A stretch of DNA of 41,582 bases from assembly GCA_023544525.1 (NCBI GenBank), contig JAMJFU010000008.1, positions 1 to 41,582 of the forward strand. The letters run 5' to 3'. Positions within the stretch are counted from its first letter, which is position 1. The number at the start of each line of letters is the position of its first letter. The position numbers were made by a program, and so were the translations under genes. This DNA is from Anaerolineae bacterium (GTDB lineage Bacteria > Chloroflexota > Anaerolineae > JAAYZQ01). The notes beneath the pieces were generated by a model. It was not told where the DNA came from and did not search any database. It saw only the letters and a list, made by a program, of their open reading frames with translations. Shown one piece after another: positions 29,060 to 41,109 of the stretch.

Positions 29060-30250
29060 TCAGCGCCCGGCGACGTTGAGATCGAACCAGCGCAACAGTG
29101 CCTGCAGGACATCCCGGTCCGGCGACCGCATGGCCGTCGTCCGGGGCACCACCCCCACAACACCCTGTTCTTCCCACTGCTCAAACAGGCTGCCCTCGCC
29201 GGTCACCGGCACTTCGGGGTTGGCCGGCCGCAGGCCGTAGGCCAGCGCCTTGCCCTGGACCTCCGCCGATAAGAGGTACTCCTCGAACTCTAGCGCCGCG
29301 TTCTTTTCCTGTGCCGTCGTCTCTGGCCCCATCCACACCGTGAAGGGGAAATCAAACCAGGTCACGTACTCGGGGTAGACGATGCGCAGAGGATCGGCCC
29401 AACGGGTCTGGATGCCCTGCATGTTCACCAACAGGTCGCTTTCCAGCAGTTGGCCAGCGTCCCCCGTCGTATACCCAAAGAGGGCCAGGTCCGCCACCGT
29501 GTAGGTCCCACCCGAGAGATCGCTCATGGAGCTCATGATCTCGCCCAGCCAGCCCTGAAATTCGGGACTGGTCACGTCCTCAACACTGATGTTGGTCTTG
29601 TCATAGTACTCGCCCGCTGCGGCTACCATCGCTGCCAGACCACTGATGTTCTTTCGTGGGTTCGAAATGGCCAGCTTAAAGTAGCCCCAGTCGTTTTGAC
29701 CTCCCAGCTCAGCCCATCCACCCGGAGCGATCGCCGCTTCGTGGATGGCCTGCCACGAGATCTCGCCGAATCGCTGCTCCAGGACAGAGGCCCGGCTATC
29801 GTAGATACCCCAAGCCAACAGGGAGATGACCAGTGGGCGGGTGCGGTACTCGCCATCGGTGAGAAACACATCACGCCCCAGGCGCTCCTTGTAGGCGGCG
29901 TTGACCAGCTCAACCAGGTACCGGCTGTCGGGGATCCAGGCCGTCGGGAAGGGTTCCATCTCATCCCGGTCGTAGCGCCCTTTGGCTGTAAGGCCATCCA
30001 TGGGCGTGACGGTGACCTGGATGAGCCGGCCGTCCAGCGTGTGATTCTCTCCGTTGAACTGCCGGGCCGCTTCTTGCACCCAGTCCGCCACCGGCAGCGC
30101 ACTGACGATCTGTACCTCCAGTGGGCCGCTGCCGGTCTCGGGTACAATCGGATCGGGCTCGCTGCCGAGCTGGCTCCAGATCAGGCCACCAGCCACAACC
30201 AGGACCGCCAGGCCAATGATTACAAAGAAGATGATACGTGTTCTCTTCAT
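29060..30250 (-). CDS. Membrane-anchored solute-binding-protein-like (PBP2) protein
   Basis: MKRTRIIFFVIIGLAVLVVAGGLIW TM; EVQIVSALPVADWVQEAARQFNGE...FEEYLLSAEVQGKALAYGLRPANPEVPV, similar to the SBP part of the 27285..28985 product. Confidence 0.75.
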   Translation of the reverse strand: MKRTRIIFFVIIGLAVLVVAGGLIWSQLGSEPDPIVPETGSGPLEVQIVSALPVADWVQEAARQFNGENHTLDGRLIQVTVTPMDGLTAKGRYDRDEMEPFPTAWIPDSRYLVELVNAAYKERLGRDVFLTDGEYRTRPLVISLLAWGIYDSRASVLEQRFGEISWQAIHEAAIAPGGWAELGGQNDWGYFKLAISNPRKNISGLAAMVAAAGEYYDKTNISVEDVTSPEFQGWLGEIMSSMSDLSGGTYTVADLALFGYTTGDAGQLLESDLLVNMQGIQTRWADPLRIVYPEYVTWFDFPFTVWMGPETTAQEKNAALEFEEYLLSAEVQGKALAYGLRPANPEVPVTGEGSLFEQWEEQGVVGVVPRTTAMRSPDRDVLQALLRWFDLNVAGR

Positions 30251-30364
30251 ACCTTCATCCTTTTACGCCAGCGCTTGCGTAGGGCGCATCGTCGGTGCTT
30301 ATGGAAATCCCCCAACTGGCGTTGGGGGCTTTCACCGTCGCACGGCAAAGAGCTGCTTCTGCCG

Positions 30365-31042
30365 CTAGTCCAAACCAAGCCGTGCCTTTCGTTCCGCCAA
30401 CTGGGCCTCCAGGGTGCTCCGCTCCAACACCTGGTCCATCTGCGCCTCCAAGCTGGTGGAGAGCATCTCGCTGCGGGCTGAAGCCTTATCCAGACGAGCC
30501 CGGATCCCTTCGGCCACTCGGGCCACATCCTCATCGCCCGCGCCCATCAGATCGTCGAGGGACTTGATCGCCTTGGCCGTGATCTCCTTGGACCGCGCCA
30601 GGTCTAGCAGGGCCTGAAGTTCTTCTCGTTCCTGCTTGACCGTGGTCAGCTTGGCTTCGAGTTTAAGGCGGGCATCCTTGAGGTTCTGGAACTCGGTCTC
30701 CTGGCGCTCGAGCATTTCGTCATAGTTCTGCAAAAGCCGGTCGATCGAGTTCAGCTTGCTTTGGGCGGCAAGGGCCAGGTCTTCTTTGCCCTCCCGCAAA
30801 AAGATGTCGATGTTCCGATCTAACTCAGCCGATCTCTGCTCCAGATCCGACTTTTTGCGGCGGAGCGTCTTGAGTTCACCGCCAACCGTGGCGACGGCGT
30901 CCTCGAGGTTCTCCAGGTTGTCCTCCACCTCGCGCACGTACTGGTCGAAAACGGCCAGCGAGTTGGCCTTGAGTGCCGAATCGACCATGGCGTGCAGATT
31001 CGCGGAGATCAGAGTTTGGACCTTCTTCAGCAGACTCGCCAT
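30365..31042 (-). CDS. pspA: PspA/IM30 (ESCRT-III-like) family protein
   Basis: MASLLKKVQTLISANLHAMVDSALKAN...VREVEDNLENLEDAVATVGGELKTLRRKKSDLEQ, all-helical. Confidence 0.8.
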   Translation of the reverse strand: MASLLKKVQTLISANLHAMVDSALKANSLAVFDQYVREVEDNLENLEDAVATVGGELKTLRRKKSDLEQRSAELDRNIDIFLREGKEDLALAAQSKLNSIDRLLQNYDEMLERQETEFQNLKDARLKLEAKLTTVKQEREELQALLDLARSKEITAKAIKSLDDLMGAGDEDVARVAEGIRARLDKASARSEMLSTSLEAQMDQVLERSTLEAQLAERKARLGLD

Positions 31043-31181
31043 TTTTCGTCATCCCTTCCTGTTCGGTTCAGATTTCGTTCTCTCGGGGCCGATCAGATCG
31101 GCCTCCAGTGCTCCCATCTTATCATGGTACCGCCAGGCCTGCATGACCCCTTGCTGACAGCCGCCTGACGAGCGCGTGCAT

Positions 31182-32534
31182 CTAGGGCTTCACCAGCTTG
31201 TAGCCCCGGCCCCGCACGGTAACGATGTAGCGGGGATTCCGGGGATCCGGTTCGACCTTGGCCCGCAGCCGGCTGAGCAGCTTGTCGATGCGCGCGTCAT
31301 CCACCTGGTCGATGTATTCCTCGCCCCAAACCGCTTCGACAATCTGGTATTTGTCACAGATCTTTTCCAGTTGGCCGTACAGCAGCAGCAACAACCGGTA
31401 CTCCAACTCGGTCAGGGTGGGGATCTCTTCTCCGTCCACCCAGACCTTCCCACCCTCGACATCTACCTGCACCCCCTCGTAGCGGCGGCGCCGGGTGAGC
31501 CGTTGGCGCCGGACGAATCCTTCAAACACCGGTGAGAAGAGCAATTCCTCCCCCTGGCGGATCACACCCTTATTGCGCATGGATTCGATGGCGCGGCTGT
31601 CAATATCCTTCTCGGAACCAACCACACCCATCAAGGCATCCCGCTGCGATTCGGTCAGGTCATCCCACAGCTTGCGGCACTCTCCCTGTACGTTGAGATC
31701 TCGATCCAGTTGCTCGCGGACCTGGCGGTGGATCAGCCAGTCCTGGCCCGGATCCCGCACCGGCTCGCCGGTCACTTCTCCTAACGCCCGGCAGACTGCC
31801 AGGAGCAACCCCAGGTGGCCATCAGCGTGATGGTAGAGAAAGGCCTTGTCCTCGTCGTCGAAAGTGTAACCCTCCTGGGTCGCCACCCAATCGATGACCT
31901 CGTCGACGTCCGGCTTTGGCAGGGGGCCGAGGAAACGAGTGAACGGCTCGAAAAGTTCTACAAATTCGTCGACATCCCGTCCCCGCCGGATGCTGGACAG
32001 CCGCCGGTTGGTGGCGGTTACAAAGCCGACCCGCCGCCGGTACTTGTCTTTGAGCGCCCGCAGGTTTAGAAACACCCGCCCTTCGAGTTGCTCGAAGGGC
32101 TCATCGAATTCGTCAAAGAGCAAGACCAGGCTCCTGGTCGTGCCCTGGCACACCGCCATTAGCCCCTCGCTGAAGCTGAGGGATATTTGAAATGCGCTGG
32201 GCGGGGCAACCAGGGTCTGGTAGGAGCTGCGCAGCCGGTCCATAAAGCTGGCTTCGGGATCTTGCGTCCCCAGCTCCTCCACCAGACTGCGGAGGATCAG
32301 CTCGTAGAATCCCTGCTCTGTCGCCTCCAACATCAGGTTAAAGTCGACATAGACAAACACGTGACCGGCAAAATGCTCAGCATGATGCCTGCGCTGCACA
32401 TCTCTGTCCGCCAGCGATCGCAATAGATGGGATTTTCCGGTATTGCTGACGCCGACCACTGCACTGCAGTCACCGTCGACAACCCTCTGCAATACATATG
32501 CGCCATCTTCATGGCGCAGCGTCAATGGTAGCAT
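31182..32534 (-). CDS. STAND/AAA ATPase fused to C-terminal OmpR/PhoB-type winged helix, putative transcriptional regulator
   Basis: Walker A GVSNTGKSHLL, Walker B SLVLLFDEFDE, C-terminal PTLTELEYRLLLLLYGQLEKICDKYQIVEAVWGEEYIDQVDDARIDKLLSRLRAKVEPDPRNPRYIVTVRGRGYKLV. Confidence 0.83.
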   Translation of the reverse strand: MLPLTLRHEDGAYVLQRVVDGDCSAVVGVSNTGKSHLLRSLADRDVQRRHHAEHFAGHVFVYVDFNLMLEATEQGFYELILRSLVEELGTQDPEASFMDRLRSSYQTLVAPPSAFQISLSFSEGLMAVCQGTTRSLVLLFDEFDEPFEQLEGRVFLNLRALKDKYRRRVGFVTATNRRLSSIRRGRDVDEFVELFEPFTRFLGPLPKPDVDEVIDWVATQEGYTFDDEDKAFLYHHADGHLGLLLAVCRALGEVTGEPVRDPGQDWLIHRQVREQLDRDLNVQGECRKLWDDLTESQRDALMGVVGSEKDIDSRAIESMRNKGVIRQGEELLFSPVFEGFVRRQRLTRRRRYEGVQVDVEGGKVWVDGEEIPTLTELEYRLLLLLYGQLEKICDKYQIVEAVWGEEYIDQVDDARIDKLLSRLRAKVEPDPRNPRYIVTVRGRGYKLVKP

Positions 32535-32767
32535 ATTCGCCTTCTAGCCAAGAATAGAGACCTCGGTTGAGGAAGAAGCAGTCCTTGGCCCAGCCTTTCT
32601 ACACCCTTATAACGCCCAGGCGGGCCAGGCGTTCATCCCAGGAGAGGGTAGAAGGCAAGCCCGTGGTCCGTCACGCTGCTCGAGCCGGCCTTGGATCGAA
32701 ACGCCAATCGCCGGAGAGCATGGCGCAACGCGGGCCAGGGCAAGAGCCCACCACCGCCCCTGGAAGC

Positions 32768-32790
32768 CTTGCCGGATACTATCCGGCAAG
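32768..32790 (-). terminator. 10-bp perfect hairpin overlapping the stop codon of the LADTG protein gene
   Basis: cttgccggat-act-atccggcaag; no U-tract. Confidence 0.4.
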
Positions 32791-33282
32791 CCTGAGCCGT
32801 CTCGCCCCGGCCAGCAGGGCCGCCAGTCCCACCCCCGAGAATATGATCAGCCCCCAGCCCAGGCCCGTATCGGCCAGTTCACCATCTTGGGCGACAGGCG
32901 TGGCGGTCTCTTGCGCTGCGGCGCTCCCTCCCGAAACGGTGGTAGCGGTAGCAGCCGGCGACGCTTTAGCGCTGGCCGTTGGAGCCGTTGTTGCGCTGGA
33001 CGCTCCCGTCCCAGAAGTGCCCACCGTGCCCATGGGCACCAGGGTGGGGCTGGGCCTGGGTGTACGTGTCGCCGTCGGTGATGGCGTTGAGGTCGCCGGC
33101 TGGGACGTGGTCGCCACTGCCGTGGTGACCTGTGCCACCGGCCCGGCCTGAGCCGGCTCACCTGGCCTGAGGACGAGCACAATCCCTACCAGAATAAGGC
33201 CTAGAAAACAAAATGCCAGAAGAACTATGAGCGGGACAGCAAACCTCCGATTAGCCAGCATCTCACGGAAACCTTGGGACAT
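32779..33282 (-). CDS. Small Ser/Thr/Pro/Ala-rich surface protein with LAxTG-type C-terminal sorting signal
   Basis: N-terminal TM, low-complexity T/P/S/A stalk, C-terminal LADTG + GLGWGLIIFSGVGLAALLAGARRLRLAG. Confidence 0.68.
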   Translation of the reverse strand: MSQGFREMLANRRFAVPLIVLLAFCFLGLILVGIVLVLRPGEPAQAGPVAQVTTAVATTSQPATSTPSPTATRTPRPSPTLVPMGTVGTSGTGASSATTAPTASAKASPAATATTVSGGSAAAQETATPVAQDGELADTGLGWGLIIFSGVGLAALLAGARRLRLAG

Positions 33283-33381: not shown

Positions 33382-34452
33382 CTAGCGGATCAGTTCCACG
33401 TTCGCCAGCGGGACCATGGCCGTGTCCCCGTCCTGGAATTCGACCTCGGCGACACTCAGCCTGGCGCCCGATTCTACCGTATAGGGTAGCCTGGGCAACG
33501 CCGTCACGCTGCCAAGTGCTCCCAGATGGGGCTCGCGCAAGATCCGCACCCGATCGCCAATCTTTAATGGGCGGGGCCCCGTATCCTGCGAGGGCACCTC
33601 ATCCTCCACCCGCAGTGGAATGATCACCTCGGGACGCCTGCCGCCCCAGCGTCCGGGCTCGTATGTGCTAATCATCGCCTCGCGGCCCATGCTGGCGTGC
33701 AACAGCGAAAACACCGGCTCCGACATGGCCATGCTGCCGAATCCATTGGTGATCAACACCGGAAACGGCAGCGACTGGAGGAACGGGCAGAGCCCTGCAC
33801 TCACGCTGCCGGCGATGGCGCCGCGAACCTTGGCCTCTATAGCCTGCTCAAGGGCCTTCTCATCCAGAATGTGGCCAGCCACAATGACCGTCCCATGACA
33901 GCTCACGTCGATCGAACTGGCTCGAAGCGGGCTCTGCGGGTTGTCAACCAGCAGCTTGAGCACCCCTTCTGCTTCGCCACCGGTCCCCCACAGCCCCTGG
34001 ATCAAGGTCCCTACCGCAGAGATGACCACACCGCGCTTGGGCATGACGTTGCTGATCTGGCCCTTTAGATGGGCCGAGAGCTCAAGCGTGGCAGGCGCCG
34101 CCTCAATGACCACAAGGCCATCGCGGATCTCGACGATCTGCCCCTCTACGGGCGATCGGACATTGCTTCGCAGCGAACCCAGGAGCCCTCCATGTCCGGC
34201 CAGCACCTCGTCGGCCTGGATCGTCTCGCCGGGTGACTTGTGGACATACTTGGTCGCACGCTTTCGATCGACCCTCAGTGCCCGGCTCACATCGACGACA
34301 CGCATATGGCCCCGCACCTGGCAGCGGGCAACCACGTCGGCCGGCCCCACCTTCTCGCCATAACCGACCAGCACCTCTCCTGCTACTGGCAACAGCCGTT
34401 CGCGCCGGATGGTGGTCAGCGGTGTGATCCACGATTCTAGAGGATAATACAT
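33382..34452 (-). CDS. Uncharacterised protein with barrel-sandwich-like segment and C-terminal KOW/SH3-like segment, GlmL-associated
   Basis: RSPVEGQIVEIRDGLVVIEA... and LKIGDRVRILREPHLGALGSVTALP...AEVEFQDGDTAMVPLANVELI. ATG 34452, GGAG RBS, 17 nt after the GlmL-like stop. Confidence 0.6.
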   Translation of the reverse strand: MYYPLESWITPLTTIRRERLLPVAGEVLVGYGEKVGPADVVARCQVRGHMRVVDVSRALRVDRKRATKYVHKSPGETIQADEVLAGHGGLLGSLRSNVRSPVEGQIVEIRDGLVVIEAAPATLELSAHLKGQISNVMPKRGVVISAVGTLIQGLWGTGGEAEGVLKLLVDNPQSPLRASSIDVSCHGTVIVAGHILDEKALEQAIEAKVRGAIAGSVSAGLCPFLQSLPFPVLITNGFGSMAMSEPVFSLLHASMGREAMISTYEPGRWGGRRPEVIIPLRVEDEVPSQDTGPRPLKIGDRVRILREPHLGALGSVTALPRLPYTVESGARLSVAEVEFQDGDTAMVPLANVELIR

Positions 34453-34469
34453 CGGCGTTTCTCCATCGG

Positions 34470-36239
34470 TCAGGAACCTACATCCCATAACCAGCGCTGC
34501 ATCTTTTCCCGGCGCTCATCGAGGTCGTCCGGGATGGCCACAGGACGCCCTCTGGCATCGATAATGATGCCCATCAGGCCACCTTCGACCTTGGTGGTGC
34601 CGGCCTGGCCTCTCATGCCCAAGCCAACGTCAAAGCGCCGGGTGGGCCGGAGCTCCATGTCAGCTGTCTGTCCCGGTGCCAGAGGGATCACTTCCAGTGA
34701 GCCGTAGGGGACTTCGACCCGCAGCGAGCGACCGTCATCATAGTCGATCTTGAAGGTTAAGGCAAGGTCGCCCTCGCGGGCCGTGCCAACAGGTGCGACC
34801 ACCGTCCCCAGGTTCAGCAGGGCGTCGCGCTCCATCACCTGGGCAGCCAGCGCGGGCTGTACCATCGCCGCACTCCCCAGTGGCCCCAAGAGCCGGGCCT
34901 TGTCCAGGGCCAGCCCGCTGACGCCAACCGGCTGCAGCGCGTCCAGGAGTACGAGGGCTGCCTGTCCATAGTGCGGCGCATTGGCCAACGCCCCACCGCC
35001 ACCGACCATGAGGTGGAATTTGGGCAACAGGCCTGGATACAGGTAGGATGAGCCCTTTGGCCATCGGGGTTTGAGCTCATCCAGGGTCAAGCGCAGCATC
35101 TCGCGAGCCACCGCCTGCTCCAGCAGCAGCTCCCGCCGTGTCTGAGGTACCGTCCGGCAATGCAAGGACTTGTTGCTCAGCAGGTTGAGCACCTCTTCTG
35201 GCTCCATCTCGAAAGGCAACCACCGCGTCACCATCTCCATGGCTATGTGGTCCAAGATGCGCCCTGCGCTGCAGCCCAGCCCCAGGTCACTGCGCACCGC
35301 CAGATGGAACTGGCCCTCCACCGCCGATGCCAGCGTGGTCGAACCTCCACCCACATCGACGCCCAGGACGTTGATGCCGTCCAAACGCGCCAGGTACTGC
35401 ACCGAATAGGCAAAGGCCTTGGCTGCGGGCAAGACCTGCACCGAGCTCCAGGCGGCCAATGTGCCAAAGCCAGGCAGCCGTTCGAGCTTGCGGTTGCGGT
35501 AGAGCTCCTCGACCTCGGCCTGCAGCGGCCCCAGATTCTCCAGATCCAGGCTGGGCCGCACATTCTCCACCGCCCGCAGGCTGGCCTCCGAGCCGACAAC
35601 CTGGGCCACCTGCGGCCGCAGGTCAGCATTGCCAGCATAAATGATGGGCGGGCAGTTGTTCTGCGGCAACGTGGAGCAGGCGAGCGCCATGGCCTCTGCT
35701 GACCGTAGGATGGGTCGCTCCGTCCCGCCGTCTATGCCGCCAACCAAGACGATGGCGTCGGGCACAAGCTCGTGGATGAGCCGCACCTGCCCCTGCAGAT
35801 CATAGTTGAGCTCGTGTCCATCCCCATCCGCTCTATCCAGCGACACAAGCCCCTCTATGGTGGTATACGTGGTTGCCAGGGCACGCCGCGCGCTGGCCAG
35901 GCTCACGTCTCGCATGACGCCGCCCAGCACCACACGAAGCGGCTCGCTGCCACTGGTGATAGCCACCACGGCGTCGACGCCCCCCAGCTGATGCTCGGGT
36001 GTGATGATCTGCCCCCGCTCGTCGATGAGGGGCCAGCCCATCACCTGCGACAGGTCACTGACCGCCTGTCGCACAGAGATCATTACGTTGTTCCAGGGGA
36101 TTCCCAATGTGCTGGGGGCTTCGGCCCGCGCCACCAGGCGGTATTCCTTCCCGACCCGATCCAACAGCAAAGCTTGGGTCGTGGTGCTGCCGCAGTCGAG
36201 GGCGAGGATCGATTCCACGGTCCGAAAGTCTTGGCTCAT
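34470..36239 (-). CDS. glmL: GlmL/MutL-family ASKHA protein (glutamate mutase-associated family)
   Basis: SILALDCGSTTTQALLL, VVLVGGIDGGTERPILRSAEAMA, NVLGVDVGGGSTTLASAVEG, LMVGGGGALANAPHYGQAALVLLDALQP. Confidence 0.83.
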   Translation of the reverse strand: MSQDFRTVESILALDCGSTTTQALLLDRVGKEYRLVARAEAPSTLGIPWNNVMISVRQAVSDLSQVMGWPLIDERGQIITPEHQLGGVDAVVAITSGSEPLRVVLGGVMRDVSLASARRALATTYTTIEGLVSLDRADGDGHELNYDLQGQVRLIHELVPDAIVLVGGIDGGTERPILRSAEAMALACSTLPQNNCPPIIYAGNADLRPQVAQVVGSEASLRAVENVRPSLDLENLGPLQAEVEELYRNRKLERLPGFGTLAAWSSVQVLPAAKAFAYSVQYLARLDGINVLGVDVGGGSTTLASAVEGQFHLAVRSDLGLGCSAGRILDHIAMEMVTRWLPFEMEPEEVLNLLSNKSLHCRTVPQTRRELLLEQAVAREMLRLTLDELKPRWPKGSSYLYPGLLPKFHLMVGGGGALANAPHYGQAALVLLDALQPVGVSGLALDKARLLGPLGSAAMVQPALAAQVMERDALLNLGTVVAPVGTAREGDLALTFKIDYDDGRSLRVEVPYGSLEVIPLAPGQTADMELRPTRRFDVGLGMRGQAGTTKVEGGLMGIIIDARGRPVAIPDDLDERREKMQRWLWDVGS

Positions 36240-36242
36240 GCC

Positions 36243-36935
36243 TCAGCCTCCCAAAAGACCACGCACAGCGTCTAGCAGGAATTGAACCCGACCTACCAAC
36301 ACGGAGAGGCGCGACATAAATGTGGCGGCAAAGATGGCCGCAAACGTGACCAGGATGAACCAACGGCCCACCCCGCCCCACACCCGGACGAGGCTGTTGC
36401 GCAACCCCACCAGCCGTCCCTCCCGCCCTGCACCAAAGTAGAAGTGCAGCAAGACACCTGTGGCTCCGGTCAGGACGACCAGGCCACTGAACAAGCCTAA
36501 TCCAGGACCATACCGGTCCGTGTAGCCCATCACGTCTGAGGCTGCCTCCACCTGGGGTATGAGGGTCCCCAGGAGCGCTCCACCAATGGCCAGTGCCGCG
36601 CCGACGCCCAACAACAAGGCTACACTCAAGCTGCCCAACCAGGATAGCCGTTTCATCGGCTTGGTCAGGAGCAACAGCCCAAGGACCAACGTGATCCCGA
36701 GGAGCAACACGCTGTCCCAATCCCCGCCGGCCAGGGCAGTAACCAAAGGAGTGACCAGTTTGGGGGCTATTACGTTGTGAAAGGCGACCACTGCGGCATA
36801 GCCGACGGCTGCTCCGATAAAGAGGTGCTCAGCCAGACGATAGAGCACGTTATCGCCCAGTAGGTAGCTGAACACAAAGAGGGTCAGCACGATGGCAACC
36901 ACGGTGCCTGCCGTGTCGAGCAGAGCTGCTTCCAT
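36243..36935 (-). CDS. Polytopic (about 6 TM) membrane protein of unknown function
   Basis: MEAALLDTAGTVVAIVLTLFVFSYLLGDNVLYRLAEHLFIGAAVGYAAVVAFHNV...; TAATG overlap with upstream CDS stop. Confidence 0.7.
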   Translation of the reverse strand: MEAALLDTAGTVVAIVLTLFVFSYLLGDNVLYRLAEHLFIGAAVGYAAVVAFHNVIAPKLVTPLVTALAGGDWDSVLLLGITLVLGLLLLTKPMKRLSWLGSLSVALLLGVGAALAIGGALLGTLIPQVEAASDVMGYTDRYGPGLGLFSGLVVLTGATGVLLHFYFGAGREGRLVGLRNSLVRVWGGVGRWFILVTFAAIFAATFMSRLSVLVGRVQFLLDAVRGLLGG

Positions 36936-39376
36936 TACTGCCCCCTTCCGGCGTTGCGTCGCGTCGATCGGGCTACAGCGCCTACCACCAGCACCAGGAC
37001 GAACACCAGGTGCCCTGCCAGCTGGGCATCCAGCCGCACGGCTGTCGGCCCGATGAGGACATCCTCGCCACTGACCAGGGCTTCGTACTCGGCCGCACCC
37101 GGCACCCCGGCGATGAGCCCTTCGAGCTGCCGCGACTCTGTTTCATAATAGGCCCGCGCGATGGGCTCCACCGAGGCACTGACCCCCGCACTCAGGGGCA
37201 CATCGTAGGGCGTGCCAGCCTGCTCGATCCACCAACGTAGGGTATCCTGGGTTGCGGCCAGCTCGACAATGAGCGCAAAACTCTGAACGTCGGTCACCCC
37301 TGCCGCAACCTCGAGTTCGGCCAGGGGTGTGGCCTGAAAATCACGAGGAAGCGCCTGCTCTATCGACTCGCCCAGGAGCCGTACCGCCGCCACCTGGCCC
37401 GGCAGATAGCCCAGATTGGCATATAGCAGGTCTGGGCCATCGGCGTCACCGGCACGGCCCTGTGCTAGCTCATCGAGCACCATCTCGGCTGTGGCCGGGC
37501 CCGCTGGAAGCAAACTGACGGCTACCACGCGCGCCTGCCGGTCCATCAGGTGGCCGACGATGCTGCGGGCCAGGACGTCCATCTCGCCGCTGGTCGTGGG
37601 GTCGTAATCAAAGGCTACGAGCACCGGAGAGCCTGCCTCCAGCGACTCGATGCCTTGGTAGAGGCTCTGCTCCGCAGGGAGCGGAGTCGCACGGCGAACC
37701 AGCACCGGCTCGCCGATCAACAGCGGCACCGTGACAACCGCGATCAGGACCAGGTAAATTATCCACAGGGGCAAACGAGCGATCAGTGGGACTTCGGCCT
37801 GGACCATCGGCTTGGGAGGGCTCTCGGGCGGCCTGCGCACGATTTCGGCAAAGAGCCGCGCTTGAGGGGTATCAGCGGAGGGCAGCTCCGGCCCTCCAGT
37901 AGCTGTCACTGCCCTGGGCTGCGCGATCAGCATCTCGACGGGCAGCGTCCCGATCAGTCCCGCCAACAGGCCCCCTTCTTCCGGGACCTCTTCGACCTCT
38001 GGCGTTTCCTCCTCCAGATCCTCCTCTTCGCGCAACTCCAGGGGTTTGAGGGCCAGGAGCCAGCCTGGGATATCCGCTCTGGCCAGACCCTCATCTTCCT
38101 CCATGTCATCTGCAGACAGCACCAGCCAGTCGGGCACCTCCCCCGCTTCGGCCAGTTCCTCCCCCGACAGCACCTCCGCCTCTGCCTCAGGAGGCCGGAG
38201 GGCTTCCAGCCAATCTGGAAGCTCCGCCTCGGGCATCCCCAACGTATCAGGTGGCGGTGCCATGGCGGTTGCCTCAGGGGACATCTCGATCTCTTCCTCA
38301 TCCACCCAGTCGAGCGTCTCCTCTTCGGCCGGCTCCTCCTCGACCGGCTCCTCATGGCCGGAGGCTGCCGCCTCATCCTCCACTGCTCCCACAAGCCCGA
38401 GGGCTACCAGCCACTCAGGGGTTGCCATTGCCTCCTCTTCATAGGCGGGGACCTCCGGCTCTTCGTCGTCCAGCCCAGCCGGGGTCTCATCCTCGTCCGC
38501 CTCTTCTTCGGCGCTGAAGGGCATCCCCTCTTCCTCATCCTCCTCGGGCAGCCCCAGCGCGGCCAGCCACTCCGGAGCTCCGGCCCCCTCCCCTTCGGCG
38601 ACAGGGGGCTCCCTTTGCTCTTCAGGCTCGTCTATCCAATCGGGAGCCGCGTCCTCCGCTTCTCCTTCCGCGTAAAAGGCCGGGCCTTCGTCTTCCCCTT
38701 CTTCCCCCTGTTCCCCAGAGGCATTTGCTGCTTCCAGCCAGTCGGGCAACTCCCCTCCTCCGCTCTCGGGGCCCTGTGCTCCGGCTTCTTCCTCAACCTG
38801 CTCAGCATCCTCCAGCCATGCATCTTCCCCTTCGTTGTGCCCCTCGATAGGTGCGAGCAGCTCTGCTTCTTGTTTCTCTGCCGGGCTGCGCAGTTCGCGC
38901 AGCCAATCTGGAACATCGTCGTCTGCGCCCTGTCCCTCGCCTGGCTCTTCAGCCGGAATAGAAGCACGCAGATCCTGGAGCCAGTCGGGGATCTCGTCTC
39001 CCTCGTCGCCCTCTTCCCTCGCTGCCCCCGCGCCCGGCTCGTCTGACCAGCTGTCCCCCAGCGCCCGCAGCCACGCCGGCATATCCCCTGCAGCTTCGGG
39101 CGCCTCGCTTTCATCCGGCGCATCTTCCTCAGGGGCTGAGGCCTTGGTCGGGAGCGAGAGCCCCTTGATGGGCGGACCCACCTCTGCCCCTGAAGCGTCT
39201 AACGGTGCGGGGAGCAGGCGCCCGCCACATTCGTCGCAGAACACATTCTGCACCGAATTCATGATCCCGCAGTGAGGGCACTTGATGCGCGTATGGGTAC
39301 CCAGCTTTTGCCCACAGTCGTTGCAAAATTTGCTCCCCTCCCTGTTTGCAGTTCCGCATCTTGGGCAGTAGATCAT
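36935..39376 (-). CDS. Double zinc-ribbon protein with acidic disordered region bearing PDWLxxL motif array, TM and external domain
   Basis: CPRCGTANREGSKFCNDCGQ, CPHCGIMNSVQNVFCDECGG; about 10 PDWL-like motifs; TM RLPLWIIYLVLIAVVTVPLLIG and C-terminal TM AGHLVFVLVLVVGAV. Confidence 0.75.
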   Translation of the reverse strand: MIYCPRCGTANREGSKFCNDCGQKLGTHTRIKCPHCGIMNSVQNVFCDECGGRLLPAPLDASGAEVGPPIKGLSLPTKASAPEEDAPDESEAPEAAGDMPAWLRALGDSWSDEPGAGAAREEGDEGDEIPDWLQDLRASIPAEEPGEGQGADDDVPDWLRELRSPAEKQEAELLAPIEGHNEGEDAWLEDAEQVEEEAGAQGPESGGGELPDWLEAANASGEQGEEGEDEGPAFYAEGEAEDAAPDWIDEPEEQREPPVAEGEGAGAPEWLAALGLPEEDEEEGMPFSAEEEADEDETPAGLDDEEPEVPAYEEEAMATPEWLVALGLVGAVEDEAAASGHEEPVEEEPAEEETLDWVDEEEIEMSPEATAMAPPPDTLGMPEAELPDWLEALRPPEAEAEVLSGEELAEAGEVPDWLVLSADDMEEDEGLARADIPGWLLALKPLELREEEDLEEETPEVEEVPEEGGLLAGLIGTLPVEMLIAQPRAVTATGGPELPSADTPQARLFAEIVRRPPESPPKPMVQAEVPLIARLPLWIIYLVLIAVVTVPLLIGEPVLVRRATPLPAEQSLYQGIESLEAGSPVLVAFDYDPTTSGEMDVLARSIVGHLMDRQARVVAVSLLPAGPATAEMVLDELAQGRAGDADGPDLLYANLGYLPGQVAAVRLLGESIEQALPRDFQATPLAELEVAAGVTDVQSFALIVELAATQDTLRWWIEQAGTPYDVPLSAGVSASVEPIARAYYETESRQLEGLIAGVPGAAEYEALVSGEDVLIGPTAVRLDAQLAGHLVFVLVLVVGAVARSTRRNAGRGQ

Positions 39377-39415
39377 CTCAGCATCACTCCCTTGGAGGAA
39401 AAGAGAAACGCGTGC

Positions 39416-40048
39416 TCAATCGCTGTAGGGCCGCTCGACGCCCAGTAAGAGACGAATGCCGGTCAGGACTGCGCCCAGTGCCACGCCCAACAGGATGCCT
39501 CGCACCCCGGCCATTGTCGGAACGTCGAGGATCCAATCCTTGACGTCGACCAGCACCGGCACCAGGCCAGCAGCCACCTGCCCCACCAATACCAGCAGGG
39601 CCACGAGGAGCATCACTGCCGACTCCAGGTTGCGATGCGACACGAGGCGGTATCCTGCAGTGATCATCAGAAAGACCAGCAGCGCCGAAAGAGCAGCCTG
39701 GACCGGCAACTGGATATTCTGAAAGATCCACTGCACCGCCGGCTGCGAGGGCCCCGACGGCTGGTTGCCGAGAGGCGGCAGGCCCAGGGCCAGCACCACC
39801 AGCAAGGCGACCAACAAGACAAAGCTGTAGAGGCTGTTGGCGCCACCCTCGCGGATCTTGCGGCCATGGACCCGAAGCACGTTCAGCAATCCCAAAAAGA
39901 ATGCAAAGGCGGCGACAATCACCGCCGCATCGATCAGATAGACAGCGACAGCATCTACCAGGGGGATCGAGCCAAACACCGCAACCAGAACCAGAAGGCC
40001 CACGGCTATGGCAATCGCGGTCGGCACAACTCGTTTCAAAGCAGCCAT
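39416..40048 (-). CDS. Polytopic membrane protein of unknown function
   Basis: Hydrophobic segments AIAIAVGLLVLVAVFGSI, AVIVAAFAFFLGLLNVL, SLYSFVLLVALLVVLALGL, SAVMLLVALLVLVGQVAAG; AAGGAG RBS before ATG 40048. Confidence 0.7.
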   Translation of the reverse strand: MAALKRVVPTAIAIAVGLLVLVAVFGSIPLVDAVAVYLIDAAVIVAAFAFFLGLLNVLRVHGRKIREGGANSLYSFVLLVALLVVLALGLPPLGNQPSGPSQPAVQWIFQNIQLPVQAALSALLVFLMITAGYRLVSHRNLESAVMLLVALLVLVGQVAAGLVPVLVDVKDWILDVPTMAGVRGILLGVALGAVLTGIRLLLGVERPYSD

Positions 40049-40064
40049 GGCCAGCTCCTTGATC

Positions 40065-40799
40065 TCACGCGAGGATCTTGAGAATAGCCAGTCCGATGAT
40101 AGCGGCGATAATAGCCCACCGGGCCCAGTCCTCCGCCAGGAGGCTGGCAACCTGGAGCGGTCCGCGCCCAACATAGGGACTGCTGGCAAACATCTCTTCG
40201 CCGATTAGGGGCTCGTCGGCCGTGGCATAGACAAAGGGCAGAGTCCTCGGATCTGCGGAACCGACGATCTGTGGCACTCCCTTGCGTGCGCCTGCCTCCC
40301 CCATCAGCAAATATTCGTCCCCAAATGTGCCGACCATCACGTTGCCCCGCAATGGCTCTCTCTGCAAGAGGCCCATCACGCCTGCGGCATATGCCAGGGG
40401 GACAGGGGCAATGAAGCGGACCTGGGTCGGATCATAGCCGTTGGGACGCCCGTGCCGCGCGTAGGCCCGGCGTAGGATGTCCTGGGCAATGGGCAGGACG
40501 GTTGGGTCGCCAACCGTCACGATCAGGGGTGCATCACTGGCTACGGCTTGCTCGGCCAGCTCAGAAAGGAGGGCCAGGCCGGCCCACGTCTCAGCGGTGG
40601 CAGCGCCACCAACGCCGGCTACACCGACCGACACGTGTAGAGGCTGATTCGTCTCGGCCGATCGTCCCACCGCCTTTGGTAGCTCCTCCATCCCGGGTAG
40701 AGGGCGCAGCTCTCCAGCCTTGCCCGCCCTGACCCTTATCACCAGGAACAGCAATAATGGCAAGAGCAACAACAGCAGGACCAACCCGATCGCTTCCAT
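40065..40799 (-). CDS. Membrane protein of unknown function with N- and C-terminal TMs (possibly DUF6754-like)
   Basis: MEAIGLVLLLLLLPLLLFLVIRV...LHVSVGVAGVGGAATAETWAGLALLSELAEQAVASDAPLIVTVGDPTVLPIAQDILRRAY...WAIIAAIIGLAILKILA. TGATG overlap with upstream CDS. Confidence 0.65.
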   Translation of the reverse strand: MEAIGLVLLLLLLPLLLFLVIRVRAGKAGELRPLPGMEELPKAVGRSAETNQPLHVSVGVAGVGGAATAETWAGLALLSELAEQAVASDAPLIVTVGDPTVLPIAQDILRRAYARHGRPNGYDPTQVRFIAPVPLAYAAGVMGLLQREPLRGNVMVGTFGDEYLLMGEAGARKGVPQIVGSADPRTLPFVYATADEPLIGEEMFASSPYVGRGPLQVASLLAEDWARWAIIAAIIGLAILKILA

Positions 40800-41095
40800 C
40801 AGCCCTTCTCCTCGCCCTCCGGGTCACGCACTGGTTCGCGCTCCTCTAGCCGCGCTACCAGGCGGTCAAGGTTCTCCCTATCGGCCAGCAACTCGGCATA
40901 GCCCGCGATGCTCGATTCGTCGACCAGGTAACTCAGCAGTGGCTGGCACAACAACAAGCCTTGGCTTGCCAGAAAGCTGAAAGGCCTGGCGATCTCGAGG
41001 AACAGCAGGGCGGGAAGCGTCAGTCTCCAGCGTCGAATCCGGCAATACAGATCATCCATTTGCTTCGCGCCCATACCCAGGCCTGGTTCTCTCAT
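40799..41095 (-). CDS. Small protein with hydrophobic segments, first gene of the GlmL-type operon
   Basis: LTLPALLFLEIARPFSFLASQGLLLCQPLLSYLVDE; overlaps the next gene. Exact start uncertain. Confidence 0.5.
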   Translation of the reverse strand: MREPGLGMGAKQMDDLYCRIRRWRLTLPALLFLEIARPFSFLASQGLLLCQPLLSYLVDESSIAGYAELLADRENLDRLVARLEEREPVRDPEGEEKG

Positions 41096-41109
41096 AACCA
41101 ACCTACCAG

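Follow-up and report, generated by a model that had tools for sequence, protein, structure and literature searches.

The closest described systems are two in which TPR proteins and Trp-centered linear motifs occur together. The TPR domains of kinesin light chain (KLC) bind W-acidic and LFP-acidic motifs, and a motif in the protein's own linker competes for binding in cis (PMC6214655). PEX5 is a TPR protein with several copies of a WxxxF/Y motif, which are read by PEX14 and PEX13 at the membrane (PMC9795577). Large, conserved arrays of linear motifs are rarely described in bacteria, and a literature search returned nothing relevant on DUF6754, the PDWL motif, a membrane role for GlmL/MutL, gliding in Chloroflexus, or bacterial Trp motif arrays.

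This work presents an array of Trp-centered motifs in a bacterial membrane protein. The window, i.e., the whole stretch of DNA analyzed, comprises 41,582 nucleotides of an Anaerolineae bacterium (GenBank assembly GCA_023544525.1, contig JAMJFU010000008.1). We take the phylum to be Chloroflexota, and the labels Chloroflexia-like, Anaerolineae-like, and Ktedonobacteria-like used below are likewise our own assumption. An earlier note, made from this DNA sequence alone, had described about ten such motifs in an acidic disordered region and had proposed that they form a multivalent docking array.

The array protein and its motifs

The array is encoded by a single open reading frame, 36935..39376 (-), whose 813-residue product has the layout zinc ribbons, disordered PxWL array, transmembrane (TM) helix, Rossmann-like core, and TM helix. 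The two zinc ribbons (residues 3 to 51; 39224..39370, (-)) match PF12773 (1.6e-9) and PF13248 (3e-10); as a double zinc ribbon with two CxxC...CxxC knuckles, the region scores 38.2 bits for PF12773, above the gathering score of 27.3. The zinc-ribbon matches L002 and L003 in the same genome belong to other proteins and were set aside. TM helix 1 was assigned to residues 531 to 554 (37715..37786, (-)) from the AlphaFold2 (AF2) helix and the sequence; the array lies between it and the two N-terminal zinc ribbons, whose presence is confirmed. The core, predicted to be extracytoplasmic, spans residues 567 to 769 (37070..37678, (-)) with a pLDDT of 93.5 and is followed by the TM helix 2 region (36977..37048, (-); AF2 and sequence) and a basic C terminus. 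Given this basic C terminus, the two TM helices, and the zinc ribbons, an N-in/C-in topology is likely, in which the array would face the cytosol and the core would be extracytoplasmic. A sequence search of solved structures with the whole protein and the core profile yielded a zinc-ribbon match and otherwise nothing; Foldseek with the core gave generic Rossmann-like matches only (TM-score by query length of <0.35); and profile-profile comparison detected no relation of the core to DUF6754 or to the operon membrane proteins.

Ten motifs, all within this reading frame, occupy residues 99 to 444 (38045..39082, (-)). From the N terminus, and with all coordinates on the (-) strand, these are MPAWLRALG (39056..39082; residues 99 to 107; AF2 helix 101 to 110), IPDWLQDLR (38966..38992; residues 129 to 137; helix 131 to 139), VPDWLRELR (38888..38914; residues 155 to 163; helix 157 to 162), LPDWLEAAN (38723..38749; residues 210 to 218; helix 212 to 219), the weak copy APDWIDEPE (38621..38647; residues 244 to 252), APEWLAALG (38552..38578; residues 267 to 275), TPEWLVALG (38396..38422; residues 319 to 327; helix 321 to 325), LPDWLEALR (38195..38221; residues 386 to 394; helix 388 to 393), VPDWLVLSA (38111..38137; residues 414 to 422; helix 416 to 423), and the membrane-proximal IPGWLLALK (38045..38071; residues 436 to 444), which aligns with ELPSWVQAMR of orthologs from family f2. 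Three more Trp residues in the tail (110, 187, and 357) are degenerate or unrelated. The array region has a pLDDT of mostly 35 to 60 with short helices at most motif sites—by AF2 prediction, a disordered context with local order at the motifs—and consists of 28% D+E and 4% K+R.

The window protein contains 10 matches to PxW[LIVM], compared to 0.22 ± 0.49 when this N-terminal region is shuffled, and the N termini of 61 orthologs contain 792 motifs versus 23.3 expected from shuffling. The consensus from 53 orthologs reads D/E (-4), L/V (-3), P (-2), D/A/S/E (-1), W, L (+1), R/Q/S/K (+2), and L/A/I/M (+4), with P at -2 of 77% and L at +1 of 75% of all Trp residues. The +4 position (L, 0.24; A, 0.16; I, 0.09; M, 0.08) is weakly hydrophobic in some lineages. 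Across its own genome, a strict DNA pattern of the motif forms clusters only in this gene; the pair pattern TGGCT..CCNRNNTGGCT was too noisy for locating other arrays, a task at which a motif profile succeeded. Tandem duplication at the DNA level does not account for the copies, which use all four Pro codons and are irregularly spaced (22 to 67 residues); TRF reported no tandem repeat over the motifs, only an unrelated 44-bp one.

Conservation and copy number of the array

The core was found in 81 of 400 genomes sampled from the phylum, in the single other genome of the order examined, and at no fewer than 80 loci outside the phylum (Planctomycetes, Marinimicrobia, Latescibacterota, Brocadia, and others), where homologs are ∼270 to 330 residues, rarely longer, and lack the array. 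Within the phylum, 59 homologs carry 4 to 63 motifs, 10 carry 1 to 3, and 12 carry none, at least 2 of these 12 (L139 and L145) being cut by contig ends. The suggested check of whether motif count varies while the core is conserved thus gave a positive answer, with 0 to 63 copies across the 81 homologs. The largest membrane array is found in the Chloroflexia-like clade, and arrays occur in clusters on the core tree, with at least 5 changes.

Across 12 pairs of relatives, identity is 90 to 100% at the P, W, and L positions of the motif, compared to 52 to 85% in the core and 38 to 70% in the linkers; the aligner may favor Trp-Trp matches and so inflate the W identity, P or L being less affected. 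The earlier note's claim that motifs are conserved amid drifting linkers therefore holds, and the result named there as counting against it, motifs that diverge like their linkers, was looked for in the orthologs and not found. Synonymous change in identical P/L codons is 0.31 to 0.81, versus 0.40 to 0.62 in the core; silent changes accumulate in these codons as quickly as in other regions, so it is the protein that is under selection. The acidic character ascribed to the linkers applies to the window (28% D+E) but not to much of the Chloroflexia-like clade, where they are P/A-rich with 14 to 22% D+E. Since linker composition shifts between lineages in this way, it is the motif, rather than the linker or its acidity, that is held by selection. 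The zinc ribbons are similarly restricted: present in the window protein, they are missing in several array-bearing lineages.

These data bear on whether the array could be a neutral low-complexity expansion, generated by replication slippage and with no binding role. Near-identical tandem units do occur in the arrays of L195, L189, and L136, as does one 15-bp repeat in the window. A slippage origin is nonetheless extremely improbable in light of the 90 to 100% conservation of P, W, and L alongside free synonymous change, the varied Pro codons of the window copies, the independent linkers that surround an identical motif in different lineages, and the presence of the motif in another protein (see below).

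Several orthologs depart from the common layout. At L159 (8330-10866), an apparent frameshift, either an assembly error or real, puts the core in a different frame from the array; an array-less reading of this locus was rejected, as the array sits upstream in the shifted frame. The G240 ortholog (L184, 5362-9708 (+); 1,449 residues) has a long insertion after the core, ahead of the last TM helix, and contains other acidic repeats (DDLLAELD and DPLAFDTGITD) and only three PxWL copies. In the G055 ortholog (core reading frame at L241), a Pro-less variant, EEDLSWLDKLGGVT, is repeated several times.

A conserved membrane operon

The array gene belongs to an operon that spans 33382-41101 of the window, with all genes on the (-) strand. 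In an order that the window shares with most genomes in the phylum, these encode a conserved 100-residue protein (40799..41101), whose homologs adjoin the operon in most genomes; a DUF6754 membrane protein (40065..40799), a clear member of PF20539 (1.2e-49) that marks the operon; polytopic membrane protein B (39416..40189; the true start probably lies within this reading frame); the array protein; polytopic membrane protein A (36243..36935); a MutL/GlmL-like ATPase (34470..36239), a member of PF13941 (1.3e-64); and a KOW/lipoyl-like protein (33382..34488). The assignments of DUF6754, B, A, and the MutL-like ATPase are supported by synteny. Other phyla keep the block DUF6754-B-core-A, with MutL and KOW often upstream, and the KOW protein is missing from most Chloroflexia-like operons. 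The array protein and the operon, which has 5 to 7 genes and occurs in many phyla, are found together in nearly all genomes. The operon is conserved across many phyla and apparently unstudied. Its MutL-like ATPase scores 84.9 bits against an equivalog cutoff of 475 for GlmL (NF040745) and is therefore not the GlmL of methylaspartate mutase; it is encoded beside membrane proteins rather than a mutase.

In family f36, the C-terminal extension of the MutL-like ATPase itself contains two PxWL motifs, which were seen in both genera with differing sequences (L191, 9856-12060 (+); L226; and L227 to L230). MutL tails of families f26, f36, and f62 usually terminate in a stretch that is both basic and aromatic, e.g., KKRGFFRRK or RRNWFGRRKS. 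By analogy with actin-like ATPases, which contact their membrane partners at short cytosolic tails, a subunit of the membrane complex (the MutL-like ATPase, DUF6754, or a cytosolic loop) could be the receptor, with the array acting as a regulator in cis or within the operon. The conserved linkage of operon and array protein in almost every genome and the two copies in f36 MutL would fit such an arrangement. We regard it as quite improbable, however: the complex exists without the array in other phyla and in several homologs of the phylum with an intact operon, no operon protein gained a domain together with the array (MutL tails excepted), and family f31 has PxW[LM] copies in a TPR protein with no core protein detected.

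The region downstream of the operon (29060-33282) encodes a PspA/IM30 protein, a solute-binding-like protein, and a regulator that combines AAA and Trans_reg_C domains; PspA and the solute-binding-like gene also adjoin the operon in L136 and L145. FtsH and PspA had been put forward as candidate partners, a suggestion that finds no support here: nothing ties either to the motif, and PspA is an operon neighbor in just one family besides this one.

A TPR protein with the same motif

A 16-column motif profile, run on 12 genomes, retrieved among the matches listed an unrelated soluble protein of TPR-linker-TPR architecture that carries clusters of PxWL. Seven to 12 copies are present in L276, L277, L278, L279, and L280, and the TPR assignment is supported by scores above the gathering score for PF14559, PF07719, and PF13432 in L276, L278, L313, and L326. 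Relatives of its N-terminal domain occur in 164 of 400 genomes. In Anaerolineae-like families, the linker contains arrays of 4 to 15 PxWL copies, while in f31, a large-genome Ktedonobacteria-like family, it contains up to 13 PxW[LM] copies and often fewer. The consensus is that of the membrane protein, and here too the motif is conserved while the linkers diverge, with one pair at 78%. In families f26, f36, f62, and f65, the linker lacks PxWL and instead carries 7 to 32 copies of PFS[LFW], of the type TPFSLEELGLSPEEIAQLE; the TPR protein of G288 (L319) has both. The Chloroflexia-like TPR proteins at L313 (930-6344 (+)) and L316 (1010-6334 (+)) contain 27 (G118) to 32 (G034) PFS[LFW] copies of this type.

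With the f36 MutL, the TPR protein brings to at least two the other kinds of protein in which the motif recurs. Taken with the motif conservation and the variable copy number, this is the pattern expected of a portable motif and supports the proposal of a multivalent docking array, although docking itself remains our interpretation. Two alternatives can be weighed here. Trp-Leu helices can partition to membrane interfaces, and in a membrane-anchored protein the motifs might serve as surface anchors, holding the tail against the lipid. We give this a very small chance, as acidic flanks are unfavorable at an anionic surface and the same arrays occur in a TPR protein that is soluble. Alternatively, the motifs might bind each other, forming a Trp/Leu sticker network that condenses the tail beneath the membrane and requires no dedicated receptor. 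The multivalent sticker-spacer layout, the variable copy number, and the unconstrained linkers would suit a network of this kind, which would also co-recruit the second protein and MutL through their copies of the motif; generic stickers, however, need neither a fixed P-x-W-L order nor an acidic -4 and a basic/polar +2 position, and the consensus is tight across lineages and two protein families. We therefore judge self-association unlikely.

Outside the Chloroflexia-like clade, the genomes that possess both genes divide into 31 with arrays in the two proteins and 5 with arrays in neither; none has an array in one only (Fisher P = 2.7e-6). Because this concordance (36/36) rests on just 2 to 4 phylogenetically independent changes (sign test P = 0.5), the covariation is suggestive only. 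Genomes with no close TPR relative (f22 and genera g14 and g23 of f5) have complete membrane homologs with 0 to 2 motifs, G055 being an exception with 5 motifs and no close TPR homolog. No close TPR homolog was found in the window's own assembly (91.6% complete); G400, a sister within the family, has the TPR protein with nine motifs. In the Chloroflexia-like clade, the TPR linker bears a TPFSLxxLGL array, with PxWL only in G288, yet the membrane array is largest there.

Proposed model and implications

We propose that the tail is probably a cytosolic multivalent docking array with a common cytosolic receptor. Because an unrelated TPR protein and f36 MutL share the motif, one cytosolic receptor probably reads all copies. 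Each partly helical motif, [DE]-hydrophobic-P-[DE/A/S]-W-L-[RKSQ]-x-[L/A], would be one weak binding site, the disordered linkers would space the copies, and copy number would set avidity. The tail appears to have been added, within one phylum, to a bitopic Rossmann-like subunit of an older inner membrane complex, presumably comprising DUF6754, the two polytopic proteins, and the MutL-like ATPase.

As to the receptor, the TPR domains of the soluble TPR protein are our tentative guess, made by analogy. They are plausible readers because eukaryotic TPRs bind acidic-flanked Trp motifs, with in cis occupancy possible (PMC6214655), and because PEX5 joins a TPR protein with several membrane-read Trp motifs (PMC9795577). 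The TPR domains might recognize the motifs of their own linker in cis as well as those of the membrane tail in trans, thereby tethering and cross-linking membrane complexes. The broadest version of the model is a phylum-wide docking code in which a Trp motif in 4 to 63 copies would connect an ancient membrane machine of DUF6754 and MutL with a TPR-array-TPR scaffold serving as display and reader of the motif alike, with the scaffold code switched from PxWL to PFSLxxLGL in the Chloroflexia-like clade; taken whole, this version is rather doubtful. If true, it would amount to a membrane-tethered multivalent network of a kind so far described mainly in eukaryotes.

Copy number ranges from 0 to 63 among orthologs of one gene, with array-less homologs as natural controls within the phylum and beyond it, and strains that carry the array are probably available in culture. 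Together with the two unrelated carriers, these features open avidity, motif evolution, and the assembly of bacterial scaffolds to direct tests. The finding also provides a handle on the widely conserved membrane operon of DUF6754 and the MutL-like ATPase.

Comparison with known systems

The present system resembles KLC in several respects. In each, disordered segments contain a Trp motif with acidic flanks, and the TPR protein's own disordered linker holds a binding motif, putatively so here. Membrane proteins that are KLC cargo can carry the motif in a cytosolic tail, as does the membrane protein described here. The motif itself, in contrast, does not follow the KLC consensus L-[ED]-W-[DE]; it is hydrophobic-P-x-W-L, with Pro at -2 and Leu at +1. 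Moreover, KLC is a eukaryotic system with one or two copies, whereas the arrays here are bacterial and contain many. With PEX5, the shared features are several Trp-centered copies within a flexible part of a TPR protein, a hydrophobic +4 position, and, putatively here, avidity and membrane partners. The aromatic +4 residue of PEX5 is not matched, as this position is Leu, Ala, Met, or Ile, with aromatic residues rare; in the present motif, Pro regularly occupies -2, and a soluble TPR protein and a membrane protein both carry the motif. Since neither consensus is followed, we treat KLC and PEX5 as analogies rather than as families to which this system belongs.
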